A DNA stretch of 64,000 nucleotides, taken from an uncultured Dehalococcoidia bacterium. GTDB taxonomy: Bacteria; Chloroflexota; Dehalococcoidia; Bin125. Location of the stretch: positions 205,623 through 269,622 of the forward strand of contig CATQGW010000003.1 of assembly GCA_958295515.1 (NCBI GenBank), in the 5' to 3' direction. Below, piece by piece: positions 32,031 to 42,154 of this stretch. How positions within the stretch are numbered: the stretch's first letter is position 1; every line of letters starts with the position of its first letter. The position numbers and the translations under genes are program-made. The notes beneath the pieces were generated by a model. It was not told the origin of the DNA and ran no database searches. It was given only the letters and a program-made list of their open reading frames with translations.

Positions 32031-33314
32031 TTATTCGAGCGCGCCTTCGGCGTGCAGCGCGTCGATCCGTTCCTGATCGTAGCCGAGCATACGACCGAGC
32101 ACGAAGTGTGTGTCCTCCCCCAGCTTCGGCGACGGCGCGACGATCGCCGCCGGCGTCTCCGAGAACTTCCAGGGCGGCGCGAGCACGGTGCGCTGGCGCG
32201 TCTCCGGCGGGCGAATCGCGACCCCGCCGCTGCGCGCCTGAAATTGCGCCGAAGCATGAATGTCCGCGCCCCACATCGAGGGGCTGGCCGGCACGCCCGC
32301 CGCCCGCAGCGCTTCCGACGCCGCCTGCGCGGACTGCTCGCCCGTCCAGGCCTCGATCGGCGCGCGCAGCTCTTCGCGGTGCTTCCAGCGCCGCAGACCG
32401 GTGCGAAAGCGCCGGTCTGCCCGCAGGTGATCCAGCCCCGCCGTCTCGCAGAGGCCGTCCCACTCCGCATCGTTGCGGCAGGCGATCGCGATCCAGGCCT
32501 CACCATTGCTCGCCGCTGCGCCGTTCGGCTCATGCATTGAGGCGCAGCGGTAGACATCGTGCGGAGCCCAGGCGCGATGCCCGTTGCCCAGCCGCTCGCC
32601 GTCGTCGCCTCGCAGTGAGACGCGCAGAAATTCCTCGCCCATATGCATCGCGATCGCCTCGCGCGAGGAGGCGTCGATGAACTGTCCTCGTCCCGTGCGG
32701 TCGCGGTAGTGCAGTCCGGCCAGCATCGCAAACGCCGCCGCGGTGCCGGCGCGTAGATCAATCGAGCCGCCCATCGTCAGCGGCGGTTCGTCGGGCGCGC
32801 CCGAGAGATAGGCCAACCCCGCCAACGCCGCGAACGTGGGCGCGTAGCCCGTGTAGTTGCGCTCCGGTCCCGACGCGCCCAGCGCGCTCGCGGAGACCAT
32901 CACGATCGCCTCGCGCTGCTCGCGCAGCGCCGCGTAGCCCAGCCCCAGCTTGTCCAGTGTGCCCGGCCGGAAGTTGTCAATCGCCCCGTCGGCGGTCGCG
33001 GCCAGGTCGCGGACCACCTGCTTCGCGCCCTCCTGCTTGAGGTTCAGCTGAATCGACAACTTGTTGAGGTTCAATTCGTTAAACATCGGAGCCTGGTTGA
33101 CACCGCCGCGGAACGCGCCCATCGCCAGCGAGCGCTGGCGGCTGTGATCGATTCGCGTCCGCGACTCGACCTTGATCACCTCCGCGCCCAGCAGCGCCAG
33201 CAGCATTGCCCCGTAGGGGCCCGCCCAGGCCCAGGTGAAATCGATGATTCGACGCCCCGCCAGCGGGCCGGGATGCGCGATCGGCTGGAGCGGGATGTGG
33301 CCGTTCGTGGTCAT
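32031..33314 (-). CDS. Family III CoA-transferase, canonical subunit (pair A)
   Basis: 427 aa. CaiB-type start GRRIIDFTWAWAGPYGAMLL, AEVIKVESRTR and the catalytic Asp in TMGGSIDLRAGTAAAF, followed by DRTGRGQFIDASSREA. This subunit has the residue needed for the aspartyl-CoA intermediate. Its start overlaps the stop of the upstream CaiB gene by 4 nt, and that partner lacks the Asp. I read them as the two subunits of one heteromeric transferase. Acid substrate and CoA donor unknown. Confidence 0.88.
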   Translation of the reverse strand: MTTNGHIPLQPIAHPGPLAGRRIIDFTWAWAGPYGAMLLALLGAEVIKVESRTRIDHSRQRSLAMGAFRGGVNQAPMFNELNLNKLSIQLNLKQEGAKQVVRDLAATADGAIDNFRPGTLDKLGLGYAALREQREAIVMVSASALGASGPERNYTGYAPTFAALAGLAYLSGAPDEPPLTMGGSIDLRAGTAAAFAMLAGLHYRDRTGRGQFIDASSREAIAMHMGEEFLRVSLRGDDGERLGNGHRAWAPHDVYRCASMHEPNGAAASNGEAWIAIACRNDAEWDGLCETAGLDHLRADRRFRTGLRRWKHREELRAPIEAWTGEQSAQAASEALRAAGVPASPSMWGADIHASAQFQARSGGVAIRPPETRQRTVLAPPWKFSETPAAIVAPSPKLGEDTHFVLGRMLGYDQERIDALHAEGALE

Positions 33315-34525
33315 GCAATCACTCCCGCCCGCCGCGCCTGCGCTGGCGTCCAGGGGCGCAGATGCGCGGCGGCGATCTCGCTCGTCGCTTCGCTCAGCCG
33401 CGGGGCGTGCGTGCGCGACGCGCGCGGCGTCTCGCTCCAGTCGGCGGCGAACTGCGTGTACGACGCAGCGCCGACATCCGGATGCTCAATCATCTCGAAG
33501 AAGCCGCGCAGCTGTTCCTGTTCAGAGGCCATCACCTCCGAAGGGCGCAGCACCGGACCGGCCGGCGCGCTCTCCGTCTGGAGCAGTCGATAGACCTCGT
33601 CGCGCGTCCGCGCCCCCGCCCATTCGTCAATCGCCGCCTGCGCGGTGTCGCTGATTTCCAGCCGATCGCGCAGCTTCCCATCCGCGTCGAAGCCCCACTC
33701 CGGATCGCCCATCGCGCGCAGCAGCCCGCCCCACTGGTGCGGCTGCGGAGTCACGGTGATCACGTGCCCGTCCGCGCAGTCCATCCGCCCCCCGAACGAG
33801 GTGCGCCCGCTGCGCATAATCGGCGGCGGTCCGCCGTCGTTGGCTGCAATTGAGATGTCCACGCGGTCAATCGTCATCATCGCCTCCACCGCCGCCACAT
33901 CCACGATCTGCCCCTCGCCGGTCGTGTCGCGCGCAATCAGCGCGGCCCAGATTGCCAGCGCCAGCGCCAGCCCCGCGTCGGCCTCGTGTACCCGCGCGCC
34001 GGCCATAATCGGCGAGCCGCCGTCGGCGCCCAGATTGCGACGCACCCCCGCCGCCGCGCCTGATGCGTGCGCCCGCGTCAACGCGCTCGACGGCCATTCG
34101 GCGGCGGGACCGTCCAGCCCCCAGGGCGTGAGCGCGGCGATGATCAGGCGCGGATGCTCGCGCCGCAGCGTCTCCGGGTCCGCGCCGGCTTCTGCGAGGC
34201 AGGAGGGCGTCCAATCCGTCACCAGCACATCGGCCTCGCCGAGCAAAGAACGCAAGACGCGCTTGCCGGCCGTCGTCAACAGGTCCAGCACGGCGCTGCG
34301 CTTGGAGGTGTTGTAGTGCAGGAAGACGGTCGAGCTTTCGTGGTGCGGCCGCCCGCCGGCGAAGGGGGCCATACGCCGCGCCGAATCCCCGCCGGGCGGC
34401 TCAATTTTGAGCGTCTCCGCCCCCGCGTCCGCCAGCAGCTTGCCCGCAAACGGCGCAGCCACCTCGGTCGCCAATTCAACGACACGCAGCCCGTCCAGCA
34501 GGGTCGGTCGCACAGCGGCAGTCAT
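33311..34525 (-). CDS. Family III CoA-transferase, degenerate subunit (pair A)
   Basis: 404 aa from the ATG at 34525, which has GTGGAG upstream; the tracked start adds 7 residues. CaiB architecture is complete (GLRVVELATEVAAPFAGKLL, AETLKIEPPGG). At the catalytic position the sequence is ARVHEADAGLALAL, Glu in place of Asp. It is translated first and overlaps the canonical subunit by 4 nt. The same order is seen at the other two CaiB loci. Likely a structural or CoA-positioning subunit, like BbsE in benzylsuccinate CoA-transferase (inference). Confidence 0.85.
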   Translation of the reverse strand: MTAAVRPTLLDGLRVVELATEVAAPFAGKLLADAGAETLKIEPPGGDSARRMAPFAGGRPHHESSTVFLHYNTSKRSAVLDLLTTAGKRVLRSLLGEADVLVTDWTPSCLAEAGADPETLRREHPRLIIAALTPWGLDGPAAEWPSSALTRAHASGAAAGVRRNLGADGGSPIMAGARVHEADAGLALALAIWAALIARDTTGEGQIVDVAAVEAMMTIDRVDISIAANDGGPPPIMRSGRTSFGGRMDCADGHVITVTPQPHQWGGLLRAMGDPEWGFDADGKLRDRLEISDTAQAAIDEWAGARTRDEVYRLLQTESAPAGPVLRPSEVMASEQEQLRGFFEMIEHPDVGAASYTQFAADWSETPRASRTHAPRLSEATSEIAAAHLRPWTPAQARRAGVIA

Positions 34526-34550
34526 AGCTCCACAGTCTAAGCCCACCCTG

Positions 34551-34749
34551 CGAACGGGCTGCCGAGCGCAGACAACGCAGTATCCTGCCCTTCGAGGAGC
34601 CGATCATGGTGCTGAAGCAGGAGCCCGCGCTCGAGGGTTTGACCACTGTGGACATCGCCGAGCTCCAGACGCGCTGCCAGGAGCTGGTCGACGAAGCAGT
34701 GAGCGGGCGCGACCCGCTCGTGATCACCAGAGACGGCCGGCCGCTCGCC
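34551..34749 (+). repeat. Direct repeat, copy 1 (toxin-antitoxin duplication)
   Basis: This 199-bp segment, from the upstream region through the first Phd domain of the antitoxin, matches 35505-35703 at a constant offset of 954 bp without gaps. It marks the unit of a tandem duplication. Confidence 0.9.
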
Positions 34750-35088
34750 CAGCTCTGGAGCTACCTCGTCACGCCGATCATCAACTATGCGCAGGACGAG
34801 CAGGGCGAATGGCATCAGCAGGAGCATGACTTGCCGGACAGCCACTGGGAGCGCACGGTGCAGGTGAGTGCCCTACCGGCGATGTTCGATGCGCTCGTAG
34901 AAGACATCCAGGCAAACTGCGTCAACGCGCTGATCACGCACGACGGAGAGCGGATCGCGGAGCTCACCCCCTACCGCCCTTCTCCGCGTCCGCCCTCCCC
35001 CGCAATGATGGAGATCCTCGCCGACTACAAGGAACCGTGGGAAGAAGCGCAAGGCTCAGCGGCGGCGCGACAGGATGATCAGCCTTGA
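34606..35088 (+). CDS. Antitoxin with two Phd-like domains (module 1)
   Basis: 160 aa, GAGGAGC before the ATG. Domain 1 (about 13-50) is VDIAELQTRCQELVDEAVSG followed by DPLVITRDGRPLAQL, a Phd/YefM-type DNA-binding antitoxin unit. Domain 2 (about 85-125) repeats the layout: VSALPAMFDALVEDIQANCV, ALITHDGERIAELTPYRP. The C-terminal tail (PAMMEILADYKEPWEEAQ) probably wraps the toxin. Classic Phd proteins have one domain and dimerise, so this chain may be a built-in dimer. The stop overlaps the TTG start of the PIN toxin. Confidence 0.85.
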   Translation: MVLKQEPALEGLTTVDIAELQTRCQELVDEAVSGRDPLVITRDGRPLAQLWSYLVTPIINYAQDEQGEWHQQEHDLPDSHWERTVQVSALPAMFDALVEDIQANCVNALITHDGERIAELTPYRPSPRPPSPAMMEILADYKEPWEEAQGSAAARQDDQP

Positions 35089-35483
35089 TTGTTCTGGATA
35101 CGCAAACTCTGGTTTGGCATCAGACCGACGACCGGCGTCTTGGGCGGCGCTCCCGATCCAGAATTGACCGCGCCTGGGGCAGGCAGAATGTCGCGGTGTC
35201 TGCCTTCGCCTTCTGGGAGATCGCAATGAATCGCGACTCGAGGGACTTTCGTAAGCTGCCTGAAATCCAGGCCTGGCGCAACGACCTGCTCCAAGACGGA
35301 CTGATCGAAATTCCGGTGGATGGCGAGATCGCGATCGCCGCAGGTCGAATTCTTGGCATGCACGGCGATCCAGGGGATCGGATCATCATGGCCACCGCGC
35401 TTCGCGCCGAACTGCTGATCACTTCCGACGAGCGAATTCTCGCTTGGAAGGGTCATCTGGAGCGCTTCGACGCCTACCGCTAA
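35085..35483 (+). CDS. VapC-like PIN ribonuclease toxin (module 1)
   Basis: 132 aa, TTG start overlapping the antitoxin stop (TTGA). The PIN metal residues are complete: MIVLDTQTLVWH, SAFAFWEIAM, GDPGDRIIMATAL and LITSDERILAW. This is the LDTxxLxW subgroup, usually paired with Phd-type antitoxins, and is expected to cut RNA. It is the same length as the second toxin (132 aa), but the two are clearly diverged. Confidence 0.9.
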   Translation: MIVLDTQTLVWHQTDDRRLGRRSRSRIDRAWGRQNVAVSAFAFWEIAMNRDSRDFRKLPEIQAWRNDLLQDGLIEIPVDGEIAIAAGRILGMHGDPGDRIIMATALRAELLITSDERILAWKGHLERFDAYR

Positions 35484-35504
35484 CCGCATGTTGCGCGCAT
35501 CCCG

Positions 35505-35703
35505 CGAACGAGCTGCGGCGCGCCGACAACGCGGTATTCTGCCCTCCGAGGAGCCGATCATGGTGCTGAAGCAGGAGGCCGCGCTTGAGGGTTTGACCAC
35601 TGTGGACATCGCCGAGCTCCAGACGCGCTGCCAGGAACTAATCGACGAAGCGGTGAGCGGGCGCGACCCGCTCGTGATCACGAGAGATGGCCGGCCGCTC
35701 GCG
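35505..35703 (+). repeat. Direct repeat, copy 2 (toxin-antitoxin duplication)
   Basis: Second copy of the segment at 34551-34749. It covers the presumed promoter/operator region and the first Phd domain. The sequences diverge right after the codons for RPLA, where the second halves of the two antitoxins become different. Confidence 0.9.
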
Positions 35704-36060
35704 TATCTGAGCCGCTATGTCGGGCCGGCGCGCCCCTTCTACGTTCGCCCTTCCAGCGAGTGCGACGGCGCAGTCGAGCGGGTCTACCGCGAGGTCGTCG
35801 AGACGCTGCACCGCGATGTCACGGTGGCCGAGCTGCAGAACCAGTCACCCGAGTTGGTCGAGCAGGCCGCAGCTAACGACTGGACCGTGCTGGTCTGGAA
35901 CAGCAAGGGACACGACGCGACTCTCACCCGCTACTTCTGGAGCGGTCAGCACCGCAACTCCGGGATCGACAGCGGCGATCTTGCTTCGGCGCTGCGAGAG
36001 CTGCGAGATGAGACGGCCGCCGAGTGGGAGCGCTCGTTGGATCGGAAGTTCCCGCTGTGA
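35560..36060 (+). CDS. Antitoxin with two Phd-like domains (module 2)
   Basis: 166 aa from the ATG at 35560, which matches module 1; the tracked start is 72 nt too early. Domain 1 is nearly identical to module 1. Domain 2 (about 85-125) is VTVAELQNQSPELVEQAAAN then DWTVLVWNSKGHDATLTRYF, again a Phd-like pattern but different from module 1's second domain. So the DNA-binding half is conserved while the second half and tail (LRDETAAEWERSLDRKFPL) have changed, as expected if they determine toxin specificity. It overlaps the next toxin start (GTGA). Confidence 0.85.
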   Translation: MVLKQEAALEGLTTVDIAELQTRCQELIDEAVSGRDPLVITRDGRPLAYLSRYVGPARPFYVRPSSECDGAVERVYREVVETLHRDVTVAELQNQSPELVEQAAANDWTVLVWNSKGHDATLTRYFWSGQHRNSGIDSGDLASALRELRDETAAEWERSLDRKFPL

Positions 36061-36455
36061 TCCTCATGGATACCCATTCCTTGTTCTGGTGGCGTGAAGA
36101 GCCGCATCGCTTGGGGCGGACCGCGACCACCTGGAGCGGCAACGCCTTTCGACATGGCGAACTCGCCGTGTCGGTCATCTCATTTCAAGAAATCGGCAGG
36201 CTGGTCAACAAGGGCCGGATGACGCTGCCGACTGATCTCCGAACCTGGCGGCGCGATCTCCTGGCCGAAGGCGTCGTCGAGATCCCTGTGGATGGTGAAA
36301 TCAGCGTCCGAACGCACGAACTCCCCAACCTGCCGTCCGACCCTGCGGATCAGCTGATCATGGCGACGGCTATGGATCGTCACACGCTGATCACAGCCGA
36401 CGAGGAGATTCTCGCCTGGTGGGGACCGCTCGAGCGCATCAACGCGCGGCGATAG
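36057..36455 (+). CDS. VapC-like PIN ribonuclease toxin (module 2)
   Basis: 132 aa, GTG start overlapping the antitoxin stop by 4 nt; the tracked start is upstream and wrong. PIN residues: ILMDTHSLFWW, VISFQEIGRL, DPADQLIMATAM and LITADEEILAWW. All acidic ligands are present. The 47 nt before the next CoA-transferase gene show no terminator. Confidence 0.9.
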   Translation: MILMDTHSLFWWREEPHRLGRTATTWSGNAFRHGELAVSVISFQEIGRLVNKGRMTLPTDLRTWRRDLLAEGVVEIPVDGEISVRTHELPNLPSDPADQLIMATAMDRHTLITADEEILAWWGPLERINARR

Positions 36456-36502
36456 GCGCTGCTCGAAACACTTAGCCGGCGGGCGCTACACTCACTGCCA
36501 CC

Positions 36503-37714
36503 GTGAGCGACTCCGACGCCTCCCCGGACATCACCCGCCCCTTTGACGGCGTGCGCGTGCTTGAACTCGCCGAAGGCATCTCCGGGCCCTATGCAGGGCG
36601 CTGGCTTGCCGCCCTTGGCGCCGATGTCGTCAAAATTGAGCGCACCACCGGCGACCCCTCACGCGCCTTCGGGCCCTGGCCCGACGACCTGCCCGACGAC
36701 GAAACCAGCGGCCTCCACCTCTACCTCAACGCCGCCAAGCGCAGCGTCACCCTCAACCTCGACACCTCCGACGGACGCGCCATCCTCGAAGAACTCGCCG
36801 CCGACGCCGAAATCATCATCGAGTCCTTTCCGCCCGGCTATCTTGCCGGGCGCGGACTCGACTACCCCGCCCTCGCGGCCGAGCGACCGCAGCTGGTGAT
36901 GATCTCGATCACCCCCTTCGGCCAGACCGGGCCCAACGCCAACCTGCCCGCCACCGAACTCACCCTCTTCGCCGCCTGCGGACAGCTCTGGCTGACCGGC
37001 GATCCGGCCCGCACGCCGCTCAAGAACGGCGGCTCCCAGCCCTCCTATCAAGCCGGCCTCAACGCCCTCGCCGCCGTCACCGGCGCCTACTACGGCGCGC
37101 TCGCGCATGGGCAGGGCGCGCACATCGACCTCGCCATGCAGGAAACCTACGCCGCCATGGCCGAAGCCTTCATGACCCGCGCCTCTCAACTCGGCATCGA
37201 GACGCTCCGCTCCGGCAACAACCTCAACGCCCTCTGGGGCATCTACCCCACCGCCGACGGCTACGGCGGCGTCTGCGCCCTGCCGCGCAACTTCCCCGGA
37301 CTCGTTGAAGCGCTCGATATGGAGGAAATGCGCGATCCGCGCTTCGCGGAACCCGCCGGCCGCCTCCAGCACAACGACGAAATCATCGCCCTCATGTACG
37401 GCTGGTTCGCCCAGCGCAGCCGCGACGACCTGACCGAACTCGGACTGCGCCACCGCGTCCCCTTCGGCTACGTCGCCTCGATCGCCGACCTCGTCGAATC
37501 CGAACACCTCAAACAGCGCGACTTCTTCATCCGGCAGGATCACCCGCGCGCCGGCCCGCTCACCTTCCCCGGACGCCTCTGGAGCAGCAGCGAATACGAC
37601 TGGCGCAGCGAACGCGCCCCTGAATTGGGCGAACATAACGTGGCCGTCCTGCACCAAGAACTCGGCTACGAGCTCGAAGACCTCGTCCGCCTGCGCGAGC
37701 TGGACGCCATCTAG
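36503..37714 (+). CDS. Family III CoA-transferase, degenerate subunit (pair B)
   Basis: 403 aa, GTG start. CaiB landmarks: GVRVLELAEGISGPYAGRWL, ADVVKIERTTGDPS, LTLFAACGQLWLTGDP. At the catalytic position the sequence is GGSQPSYQAGLNAL, with Ser where Asp is required. It is the first gene of a pair and is followed after 18 nt by the canonical partner. Its C-terminal part (FPGRLWSSSEYDW, APELGEHNVAVL) is complete, so it is not a decayed fragment but a full-length subunit without the nucleophile. Confidence 0.87.
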   Translation: MSDSDASPDITRPFDGVRVLELAEGISGPYAGRWLAALGADVVKIERTTGDPSRAFGPWPDDLPDDETSGLHLYLNAAKRSVTLNLDTSDGRAILEELAADAEIIIESFPPGYLAGRGLDYPALAAERPQLVMISITPFGQTGPNANLPATELTLFAACGQLWLTGDPARTPLKNGGSQPSYQAGLNALAAVTGAYYGALAHGQGAHIDLAMQETYAAMAEAFMTRASQLGIETLRSGNNLNALWGIYPTADGYGGVCALPRNFPGLVEALDMEEMRDPRFAEPAGRLQHNDEIIALMYGWFAQRSRDDLTELGLRHRVPFGYVASIADLVESEHLKQRDFFIRQDHPRAGPLTFPGRLWSSSEYDWRSERAPELGEHNVAVLHQELGYELEDLVRLRELDAI

Positions 37715-37732
37715 GAGGCGCAAGGATGCCCC

Positions 37733-39019
37733 GTGCCTGACCCCGGACGACCCCTGAGCGGCGTCCGCGTCGCCGACCTCACCATGATCTGGGCCGGCCC
37801 CTACGCCGCCAAAATCCTCGCCGACCAGGGCGCGGAAGTGATCAAAATCGAGTCCCCCAGCGCCTGGGACAACATCCGCACCCTGCTGCCTCCGCCCACC
37901 GCGCCCGGCGAGCACTGGTGGAACACCAACTTCTACTTCCACGAATACAGCCGCAACAAGAAATCGCTCAGCCTCGACCTCGCCGCGCCGCAGGGCAAGG
38001 AAATCTTCGCCCGCCTCGTCGCCCAGTGCGACGTCGTGATCGAGAACTACCGCACCGACGTGATGGACAACCTCGGCCTCAGCTACGAATGGCTGCGCGC
38101 GCAGCGCGACGACATCATCGTCGTCGGCATGGCCGGCTTCGGCAAAACCGGACCCGAGCGCAACGCCGTCGGCTACGGCCCGATCATCGAGATGATGTCC
38201 GGCCTCACCTCCACCTCCGGCTACGGCGACGACGGCATGCCCTACAAGAGCGGCATCTCCTACGGCGACCCGATCGCCGGCGTCGCCGCCGCCGCCGCCG
38301 TCGCCACCGCCCTCATCCACCGCCGCCGCAGCGGCCGCGGCCAATACATCGACCTCGCCCAGCGCGAGGCCATGTCCACCATGCTCGGCGAGTTCTACAT
38401 GGACTGGTCGATGAACCGCCGCCTGCCCGAGCATCAGGGCAACGGCCACGACTGGATGGCCCCGCACAACATCTACCCCTGCGCCGGCGAGGAAGAGTGG
38501 ATCGCGATCTGCGTGCGCAGCGACGCCGAATGGGAGGCGCTCAAGCGCGTCATGGGCGCGCCCGACTGGGCCGAACACGATGACTTCTCCGACCAAATCC
38601 TGCGCTGGGAGCACCGCGAGCAACTCGATCAGGCCGTCGCCGAGTGGACCGCCGCACACAGCAAGACCGAGCTCTTCGCCGCCCTGCGCGACGAACGCAT
38701 CCCCTCCTCGCCCGTCTGGAAGACGCTCGAAGTGATCCGCGACCCGCACCTCGCCGCGCGCCGCTACTACGAGCCGCTGCGCCACCCCGAAGTCGGCATC
38801 TGGATGGTCCACGGCTGGCTCTGGCGCACCGCCGGCGCCGGCCCCTGCGTGCTCGCCCCCGCCCCCGACTTCGGCCAACACAACGAAGAAATCCTCGGCG
38901 GCCTGCTCGGCCTCTCCAGCGCAGAGCAAGCCGCCCTCCAAACCGCCGGCATCACCGCCACCCAACCCAGCGGCGTCCCCCTCTCCTCCGAAATGCCCCC
39001 CCAACCATCCCTGATCTAG
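37733..39019 (+). CDS. Family III CoA-transferase, canonical subunit (pair B)
   Basis: 428 aa, GTG start with AGGAGG about 14 nt upstream. CaiB landmarks: GVRVADLTMIWAGPYAAKIL, AEVIKIESPS, NKKSLSLDLAAPQGKEIF, and the catalytic Asp in GISYGDPIAGVAAAAA, then GRGQYIDLAQREAM. Expected to form a heteromer with the preceding Asp-less subunit. Downstream is a repeat-rich gap of 560 bp. Confidence 0.9.
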   Translation: MPDPGRPLSGVRVADLTMIWAGPYAAKILADQGAEVIKIESPSAWDNIRTLLPPPTAPGEHWWNTNFYFHEYSRNKKSLSLDLAAPQGKEIFARLVAQCDVVIENYRTDVMDNLGLSYEWLRAQRDDIIVVGMAGFGKTGPERNAVGYGPIIEMMSGLTSTSGYGDDGMPYKSGISYGDPIAGVAAAAAVATALIHRRRSGRGQYIDLAQREAMSTMLGEFYMDWSMNRRLPEHQGNGHDWMAPHNIYPCAGEEEWIAICVRSDAEWEALKRVMGAPDWAEHDDFSDQILRWEHREQLDQAVAEWTAAHSKTELFAALRDERIPSSPVWKTLEVIRDPHLAARRYYEPLRHPEVGIWMVHGWLWRTAGAGPCVLAPAPDFGQHNEEILGGLLGLSSAEQAALQTAGITATQPSGVPLSSEMPPQPSLI

Positions 39020-39368: not shown

Positions 39369-39560
39369 TGGCAAGCACGGGTATGACGGAGGAGGGGGCA
39401 CGGGTATGACGGAGTGTGCGGAGCCCCACCCCAAAGCCCCGAAACCCTCCCACATAGCCCTCACTTATCCACCTATTGATTTCCTTGACTCGTTGTGCAA
39501 TGCTCCCGCAACTGGTTTCCCCCGACGTGCGCACCCTGCCGGCAGGACTGCCTGAGTTTC

Positions 39561-39576
39561 GGGGGGGGGGGGGGGG
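39561..39576 (+). repeat. Run of 16 G at the ribosome-binding position
   Basis: Sixteen consecutive G end 4 nt before the ATG of the first collagen-like gene. No other Shine-Dalgarno is present, so the G-run itself would have to pair with 16S rRNA. A CCCCCG stretch at 39519-39524 could pair with it. Homopolymers of this length change length easily by strand slippage, so expression could switch; the exact count may also be uncertain in the assembly. Confidence 0.85.
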
Positions 39577-39580
39577 CAAA

Positions 39581-42154
39581 ATGATCCGACGGTACCCGGA
39601 CGTCTTCATCGCGGCGGCGATCGTGCTCGTTGTCATTGTGATCTTCACCACCACCACCGGCGGCTTCAGGTCCTACAACACTGCCAGCGGCTCGGGCAGC
39701 GAAAACGGATTCATCGCCCCCCCGACCGAGCCGCTCGCTGCGCCCGCGCCCACCCAGTGGTACTGGGGCACGGGCGCGCCCGACGCCGTCATCTTCGCCC
39801 CCCGCGGCGACGCATTCCAGATGGGCGACTTCTACCTCGACACCGACAGCGGCGACATCTACGTCCGCACCGCAATCGGCTGGAGCTCCTCGCCGATCGG
39901 CTCCCTGGCCGCAGGCGCCACCGGCGCTGCCGGCGGCGAGGGCGAGCAGGGCCCGCGAGGCCTCGTCGGCGCGCGCGGCATGCCCGGCGAACCCGGCTTG
40001 CGCGGCCTTCCCGGTGAGCAGGGACCCCCGGGCGCACTGGGACCGCGCGGCGCTACCGGCCCGCGCGGGCTGACCGGCCCCGCCGGCGCAACCGGAGCAG
40101 TCGGCCCGCAAGGCGTGCCCGGCGCAATCGGACCTCAGGGCCCCGCCGGCGCAACTAGCGCAGTCGGCCCGCAAGGCGTCCCCGGCGCAATCGGACCTCA
40201 AGGCCCCGCCGGCGCAACTGGCGCAGTCGGCCCGCAAGGCGTCCCCGGCGCAGTCGGACCTCAGGGCCCCGCCGGCGCAACTGGCGCAGTCGGCCCGCAA
40301 GGCGTCCCCGGCGCAATCGGACCTCAGGGCCCCGCCGGCGCAACCGGCCCCGCCGGACCCGCAGGACCCCAAGGACCGCGCGGCCTACAGGGACTCCAGG
40401 GCGACCCTGGACCCTCCGGCGGACCGCCCGGACCGGCCGGCGCAATCGGACCCGCAGGACCTCAGGGTGACGTCGGACCGCCCGGACCGCGCGGCCTGCA
40501 AGGCCCCAAGGGTGACCCCGGCACCGCCGGTCCGCAGGGCATTCAGGGACCCGCCGGTCCCGCCGGCGGACCGGTCGGCCCGCAGGGCGAAACCGGCGCA
40601 CCCGGCCCGCAGGGACCGCGCGGCCCGCAAGGCGCGATCGGCTACGCAGGCGCGACGGGCGCGCCCGGCCCGCAGGGACCGACCGGCGCGACCGGCGCTG
40701 CCGGCCCGCGCGGCAGCCGCTGGTTCACCCACAACGGCGACCACACCTCCTACACCTGGAGCGGCATCTCGCTGCAAAGCGGCGACATGTTCATGAACAC
40801 CGACAACTCCAAGATCTACCGCCGCGACGGCAGCGCCTGGACGCTCGTCGGCGCTCTGACCGGCATCCAGGGCGTGCAAGGTCTGCAAGGCGTCGCTGGC
40901 CCCAAGGGCGACACCGGCGACACCGGTCCGCAGGGCGCGACGGGTCCGCAGGGGGCAACAGGCCTCGCCGGTCCCAAGGGCGACACCGGCGCGATCGGCC
41001 CCGCCGGGCAGCGCGGCAGCCGCTGGTTCACCCACGACGGCAGCCCTGTCGAGTACAACTTTGCGGGCGCCACGCTACAGAGCGGCGACATGTTCATGAG
41101 CACCGCCAACTCGAAGATCTACCGCTACAACGGCAGCTCCTGGGCGCTCACCGGCACCCTCACCGGTCTCACCGGCCCGCGAGGTCCGCAGGGCGATACC
41201 GGCGCCACCGGCGCCGTCGGTCCCCGAGGCCCGATCGGGCCTCGCGGCGAAACCGGCCTGCGAGGTCCGCAGGGCGCGATCGGCCCCAAAGGCGACACCG
41301 GCGACACCGGCGCTGCCGGGCAGCGCGGCAGCCTCTGGTTCATCGAGGACGACTGGGGGGGCGCCACGCTGCAGAGCGGCGACATGTACATAAACCCCGC
41401 CAACTCCAAGATCTACCGCTACAACGGCAGCTCCTGGACGCTCACCGGCACCCTCACCGGTCTCACCGGCCCGCGAGGTCCGCAGGGCGACACCGGCGCG
41501 ACTGGCGCGACCGGCGCTGCCGGGCAGCGCGGCAGCCGCTGGTTCACCCACAACGGCGGCCACGCCGAGTACACCTGGAGCGGTGTCACGCTGCAGAGCG
41601 GCGACATGTTCATGAACACCAACAGCTCCCAGATCTACACGTACGGTGGCAGTGCCTGGGCGCTCGTCGGCACGCTCACCGGCATCACGGGACCGCAGGG
41701 CGCGCGCGGCACGGGTTGGTTCTACGGCACCGACGATGTGCCCAACCCGGTTGGCGCGAAAGCCGGCGACCTCTACTTCAACTACAGCAACGGCGACGTC
41801 TACAGCTACGAGGACACCTCCGGCGGCCTGGGGCTGTCCTGGAACCGTCGCACCTCGCTGCAGGGAGCTGCGGGCTCGGACGGCGCCACCGGACCCACCG
41901 GCGCCACCGGCCCACGGGGCGACACCGGCCCGCAGGGTCCGAGCGGCGCGGACGGTGCCACCGGCGCGGCCGGCGCCGCCGGCAGCCAGTGGTACCACGG
42001 CAGCGGCAGTCCCACCGACAACCCGCCGACGGCGCGCGGCGGCGCCCTGCGCAACGGCGACTACTACCTCGACACCCAGGGTTTCACGATCTGGTCCTAC
42101 GACGGCGCCAGCTGGACCCAGATCGCCAGCCTGGTCGTGACCGCCCAGACCTAG
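39581..42154 (+). CDS. Collagen-like membrane-anchored surface protein 1
   Basis: 857 aa. One N-terminal membrane helix ([20 protein letters not shown]) follows MIRRYPD. Long Gly-X-Y tracts then alternate with about seven compact modules of roughly 50 residues. The modules have the pattern W(F/Y)-x-H/G ... SGDMFMNT-x-NS-K-IYRY-x-GS-x-W-x-L-x-G-x-LTG, with an N-terminal form [12 protein letters not shown] and a C-terminal form [10 protein letters not shown]. The collagen tracts should trimerise outside the cell. The ATG at 39581 is chosen over the tracked TTG because the paralogue begins with the same MIRRYPD. The protein ends right after the last module, with no sorting signal. Confidence 0.88.

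Follow-up and report, generated by a model that had tools for sequence, protein, structure and literature searches.

The window analysed here, a stretch of 64,000 nucleotides from an uncultured Dehalococcoidia bacterium, carries two adjacent toxin-antitoxin modules of the Phd-PIN type (VapBC-like, type II) on its plus strand at positions 34549-36455 (all coordinates are those of the window). Each module consists of a 57-nt upstream block (34549-34605, with an AGGAG stretch that resembles a ribosome-binding site, and its counterpart at 35503-35559), an antitoxin gene (A1, 34606-35088, 160 aa; A2, 35560-36060, 166 aa) and a gene for a PIN-domain toxin (T1, VapC-like, 35085-35483, TTG start; T2, 36057-36455, GTG start). 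The initial annotation had described two antitoxin genes that each overlap a PIN toxin gene by 4 nt, and this held in both modules: the overlaps read TTGA (A1/T1) and GTGA (A2/T2), and the toxins match PF01850 (E 8e-13 for T1 and 2e-8 for T2). The reading frames of all four genes are intact. Both antitoxins score above the cut-off for Pfam PhdYeFM_antitox (PF02604), A1 over two stretches (E 7e-10) and A2 over one (E 6e-9), and these were the only PF02604 matches in the source genome (2.62 Mb, 6 contigs). With a Phd/YefM antitoxin, a PIN toxin that keeps its acidic residues and an antitoxin-first overlap, both have the sequence and gene-order features by which type II Phd-PIN modules are recognised.

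The modules are bracketed by genes for family III CoA-transferases (33311-34546, minus strand; 36503-37714, plus strand). Four such genes lie within 32031-39019, two on each side of the modules and directed away from them. Beyond these, an 892-aa collagen-like protein is encoded on the plus strand at 39476-42154, in which recurring globular stretches break up many Gly-X-Y repeats (Pfam Collagen, E 1e-64); minus-strand ORFs across this gene had no Pfam match. A collapsed or duplicated assembly was considered and thought unlikely, because the two module copies differ throughout.

Two divergent PIN toxins

The PIN acidic residues D5, E45, D98 and D115, which occupy invariant columns of the family alignment, are kept in T1 and T2, and for this reason we expect both toxins to be active. 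Domain 2, the tail and the toxin had been said to differ between the modules, and their divergence is indeed strong, with T1 and T2 sharing 40% protein identity. Both toxins sit on long branches of the toxin tree (0.87 and 1.07, where the median is 0.25). A free quick tree separates T1 and T2, whereas constraining them together gives a better likelihood (long branches may attract).

A second Phd-like domain in each antitoxin

Domain 1 occupies codons 1-48 of each antitoxin (34606-34749 in A1, with PF02604 at residues 14-53; 35560-35703 in A2) and appears to have been homogenised between the two. The core of the putative second Phd domain lies at residues 83-123 of A1 (34852-34974) and, in degenerate form, at residues 85-125 of A2 (35812-35934). 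Each core is followed by a C-terminal tail that is presumed to bind the toxin (34975-35085 in A1, from its position and its alignment with the tails of single-Phd antitoxins; 35935-36057 in A2, from alignment and low-confidence helices). An HMM of single-Phd relatives matched A1 at residues 82-129 with 15.7 bits and domain 2 of A2 weakly (0.4-8 bits). When scores were compared with those of 20 shuffled sets, domain 2 of A1 stood clear and 61 of the 63 real relatives outscored all shuffles, while domain 2 of A2 as a single query did no better than shuffles by sequence alone. Inside each antitoxin the alignment of domain 1 with domain 2 nevertheless scored above almost every shuffled version (P ≤ 0.0015), and the internal similarity of A2 exceeded 2000 out of 2000.

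Each antitoxin was modelled alone with AlphaFold2, from input alignments in which relatives were placed against domain 1 and the tail only. Both domain 2 models have the Phd order strand-helix-strand-strand at a pLDDT of about 86-93 (A1: E82-86, H87-104, E107-112 and E115-122, pLDDT about 90; A2: E84-88, H89-106, E109-114 and E117-124, pLDDT 86-93). Helices in the tails were predicted with low confidence (H132-140 and H142-153 in A1; H138-149 and H153-163 in A2), the pTM was 0.62-0.64, and the interdomain linker was modelled as a hairpin in A1 and as a helix in A2. Foldseek searches against the PDB matched the A1 model to the N-terminal domain of VapB46 (probability 0.99, TMt 0.80), a prevent-host-death protein of N. 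europaea and YefM, and the A2 model to the N. europaea Phd protein and YefM (2a6q); none of the matches reaches E 0.001, which is no surprise with a domain of 40 residues, and either antitoxin domain may be the matched one. Matches to CBS domains, with probabilities of no more than about 0.35 and an rmsd of about 15-20, were set aside as spurious. The presence of two Phd-like domains in one chain, which the initial annotation had claimed, is therefore supported by the HMM match and AlphaFold2 for A1 and chiefly by AlphaFold2 for A2, and on the same evidence neither protein is a classic Phd antitoxin, i.e., one Phd domain plus a tail. A domain 2 without a Phd fold, which the initial annotation had named as grounds for refutation, is not what the models show.

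The two domains differ in their basic residues. Eight positions of the 41-residue core are usually R or K in relatives (1, 4, 9, 11, 14, 30, 33 and 37); domain 1 keeps three of these (R23, R42 and R45), and each domain 2 keeps only the first. As most of the typical basic positions are gone, this suggests that domain 2 has lost contact with DNA.

Related modules carry a single Phd domain

A search with the toxin profile returned 80 loci, in 79 of which an upstream ORF matches the Phd HMM (a few are clipped at contig ends). Relatives of the same family have a single-Phd antitoxin before a homologous toxin, mostly with a 4-nt overlap. A search for other double-Phd antitoxins, which the initial annotation had suggested, found none in about 78 related modules or in 393 genomes of the class: none of the toxin-profile loci had two Phd domains, the A1+A2 profile retrieved no further double-Phd antitoxin across the 393 genomes, and among the matches listed for these genomes no two PF02604 domains share a frame. 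No relative was found in viral contigs (searched with A1 and A2), plasmids (tblastn with A1) and genome contigs (searched with the A1/A2 alignment). PADLOC gave no match for the modules, PHROGs gave weak matches only, and neither the A1/A2 profile nor T1 had a meaningful match among PDB sequences. A limited paper search found no double-Phd antitoxin in the literature, which does not prove absence.

A profile of domain 2 and the tail, built without domain 1, retrieves mostly single-Phd antitoxins in the class (E 7e-5 to 0.01), and a PIN toxin gene of the same family lies behind six of the seven matches inspected. Judged by these sequence matches, domain 2 together with the tail is the counterpart of an ordinary single-Phd antitoxin of the family. 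One locus of the toxin-profile set (L035:2-3004) has a different arrangement, in which a 1000-aa ORF for a SNF2/ResIII-type helicase precedes the PIN toxin and ends in the antitoxin tail, with no Phd domain.

A repeat that covers the upstream block and domain 1

At an offset of 954 bp, 187 of 203 bases (92%) are identical from about 34546 to 34748. This repeat spans about 57 nt of upstream sequence and codons 1-48, and it has a sharp identity edge at codon 48/49. Domain 1 and the region upstream had been called nearly identical, which stands for domain 1 (46 of 48 amino acids) but was generous wording for the non-coding part, where 49 of 57 positions are identical and 8 differ. Within domain 1 we obtained a dN of about 0.018 and a dS of 0.22-0.30 (dN/dS about 0.06-0.09), compared with a dS of about 1.24 (near saturation) between the toxins. 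Domain 1 is thus under purifying selection and still constrained as a Phd domain, and this difference, together with the 40% identity of the toxins, marks the locus as a mosaic. Given the sharpness of the identity edge, we infer that the mosaic owes its origin either to gene conversion or to a duplication in which the 5' part was copied late.

The divergence of the upstream block is similar to, or slightly below, that of the synonymous sites of domain 1, so that constraint on an operator is not clearly visible in the block. Since no palindrome conserved in both upstream blocks was found either, recent conversion or duplication could account for the similarity of the blocks without selection, i.e., this similarity may be neutral. 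Scans for a sigma-70-type site, promoter, terminator or inverted repeat gave nothing convincing.

A candidate operator in the family

Single-Phd relatives from many phyla (L032-L111) often carry a paired palindrome, TGACCATGGTCATGACCATGGT, upstream of the antitoxin, usually some 30-70 nt before its start. Called with at most 6 mismatches, for which 2.7% of random stretches qualify, it was present in 55 of the 75 relatives with enough upstream sequence. It co-occurs with a helix motif in the antitoxin: the palindrome was found in 55 of 64 loci with ASEFKA and in 0 of 9 without it (Fisher P 5e-7, with loci counted as independent). We thus regard TGACCATGGTCATGACCATGGT as a candidate operator and the lysine helix as the matching candidate DNA-contact residues. 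The A1/A2 modules lack both features of this KASEFKAKC subfamily with its TGACCATGGTC palindrome: domain 1 reads DIAELQTRC where the palindrome-bearing relatives have KASEFKAKC, the best match to TGACCATGGTCATGACCATGGT upstream of the modules has 9 mismatches out of 22, and the site is absent from the whole source genome. Palindrome and lysine helix are missing jointly both here and in single-Phd modules of the same family.

This joint absence weakens the reading of a shared operator and suggests that DNA specificity changed at an earlier time in the family. The initial annotation's proposal of a shared operator therefore lost ground, given an upstream block about as diverged as synonymous sites, no palindrome conserved between the two modules and the absence of the relatives' site. 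Its suggestion of cross-regulation between the modules is plausible, because 46 of 48 residues of domain 1 are identical.

Interpretation and competing explanations

The locus represents a known toxin-antitoxin type in a rare form, with double-Phd antitoxins. On balance we lean, with little more than even confidence, towards two paralogous Phd-PIN modules with a second Phd domain, in which an operator-reading domain 1 would be shared, and domain 2, tail and toxin would be module-specific and have diverged together. Domain 1 would most likely dimerise and read the operator of both modules, and domain 2 would most likely present the tail that wraps the toxin, acting as a scaffold or in dimerisation, since domain 2 plus tail resembles an ordinary single-Phd antitoxin and has diverged along with the toxin. 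The 4-nt overlap would couple translation of antitoxin and toxin, and the upstream block and domain 1 would have been homogenised while the rest diverged, either through gene conversion or because a segment was duplicated late. A1 and A2 would then be predicted to form mixed dimers and to share repression, with neutralisation insulated between the modules; module-specific neutralisation fits the divergence pattern, and shared regulation is a reasonable hypothesis. That a shared DNA-reading domain and a toxin-specific domain came to provide common repression and separate neutralisation after the modules left the ancestral operator of the family seems to us improbable.

The same data can be read as a neutral tract, in which the upstream block and domain 1 were recently converted, domain 2 survives as a relic in decay, and the proteins work as ordinary single-Phd antitoxins with no functional cross-regulation. 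The near-synonymous divergence of the upstream block (8/57), the failure to find a conserved palindrome and the highly degenerate domain 2 of A2 all point this way, but a relic sits uneasily with a domain 2 that is in frame in both copies and predicted in Phd order at high confidence, with a domain 1 dN/dS below 0.1 and with four intact reading frames, and we consider this reading rather unlikely. About as doubtful is an origin by cassette capture, i.e., the copying of the upstream block and domain 1 from one module onto a pre-existing single-Phd module instead of a whole-module duplication followed by conversion. Such a capture would agree with the retrieval of complete single-Phd antitoxins by the domain-2+tail profile alone, and with a free quick tree in which T1 and T2 are not sisters; the better likelihood of a tree that holds them together (where long branches may attract) speaks against it, as do the architecture and adjacency common to both modules. 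It is also conceivable, though unlikely, that domains 1 and 2 pack against each other as two subunits do in a Phd dimer, which would make each chain a pseudo-dimer, an antitoxin whose asymmetry lies in having a single half that reads DNA. Two confidently predicted Phd-like domains per chain (pTM 0.62-0.64) and the loss from domain 2 of basic positions that would be required in one half alone are consistent with such packing, which the unlike predicted linkers (hairpin in A1, helix in A2) do not favour.

If our preferred reading of a shared domain 1 and a module-specific remainder holds, the locus may naturally split the regulating part of an antitoxin (shared, homogenised) from its neutralising part (module-specific), and it would then offer a test case for how paralogous toxin-antitoxin modules can be regulated together and yet not neutralise each other's toxins. 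In addition, the related loci reveal a candidate operator with corresponding lysine positions in a large Phd-PIN family, a DNA-recognition pair that lends itself to direct testing.

Relation to known systems

In type II pairs of the Phd-PIN kind, a Phd antitoxin gene directly precedes a PIN toxin gene (Makarova et al. 2009, PMC2701414). The modules described here have the same gene order and belong to this known type; what sets them apart is the double Phd in one antitoxin chain, which was unseen in the sampled relatives. Their toxins are of the same family as those of the single-Phd modules (up to 55% identity), the antitoxin tails are related, and the 4-nt overlap recurs in most of the single-Phd modules. 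Those modules, however, have one Phd domain, the KASEFKAKC helix and the conserved palindrome, of which helix and palindrome are absent from the A1/A2 modules. The closest Phd fold in the structure search is the N-terminal domain of VapB46 from Mycobacterium tuberculosis (PDB 6jqy), with an rmsd of 1.2 over 40 columns and 32% identity, although the match covers 40 residues only and involves a single domain. In Phd-Doc and YefM-YoeB, a dimeric N-terminus binds DNA and a disordered tail wraps the toxin (PMC4803016); the Phd/YefM fold is common to these systems and to A1 and A2, which differ from them in the toxins (there Doc and YoeB) and in the single-domain, dimeric form of the antitoxin.
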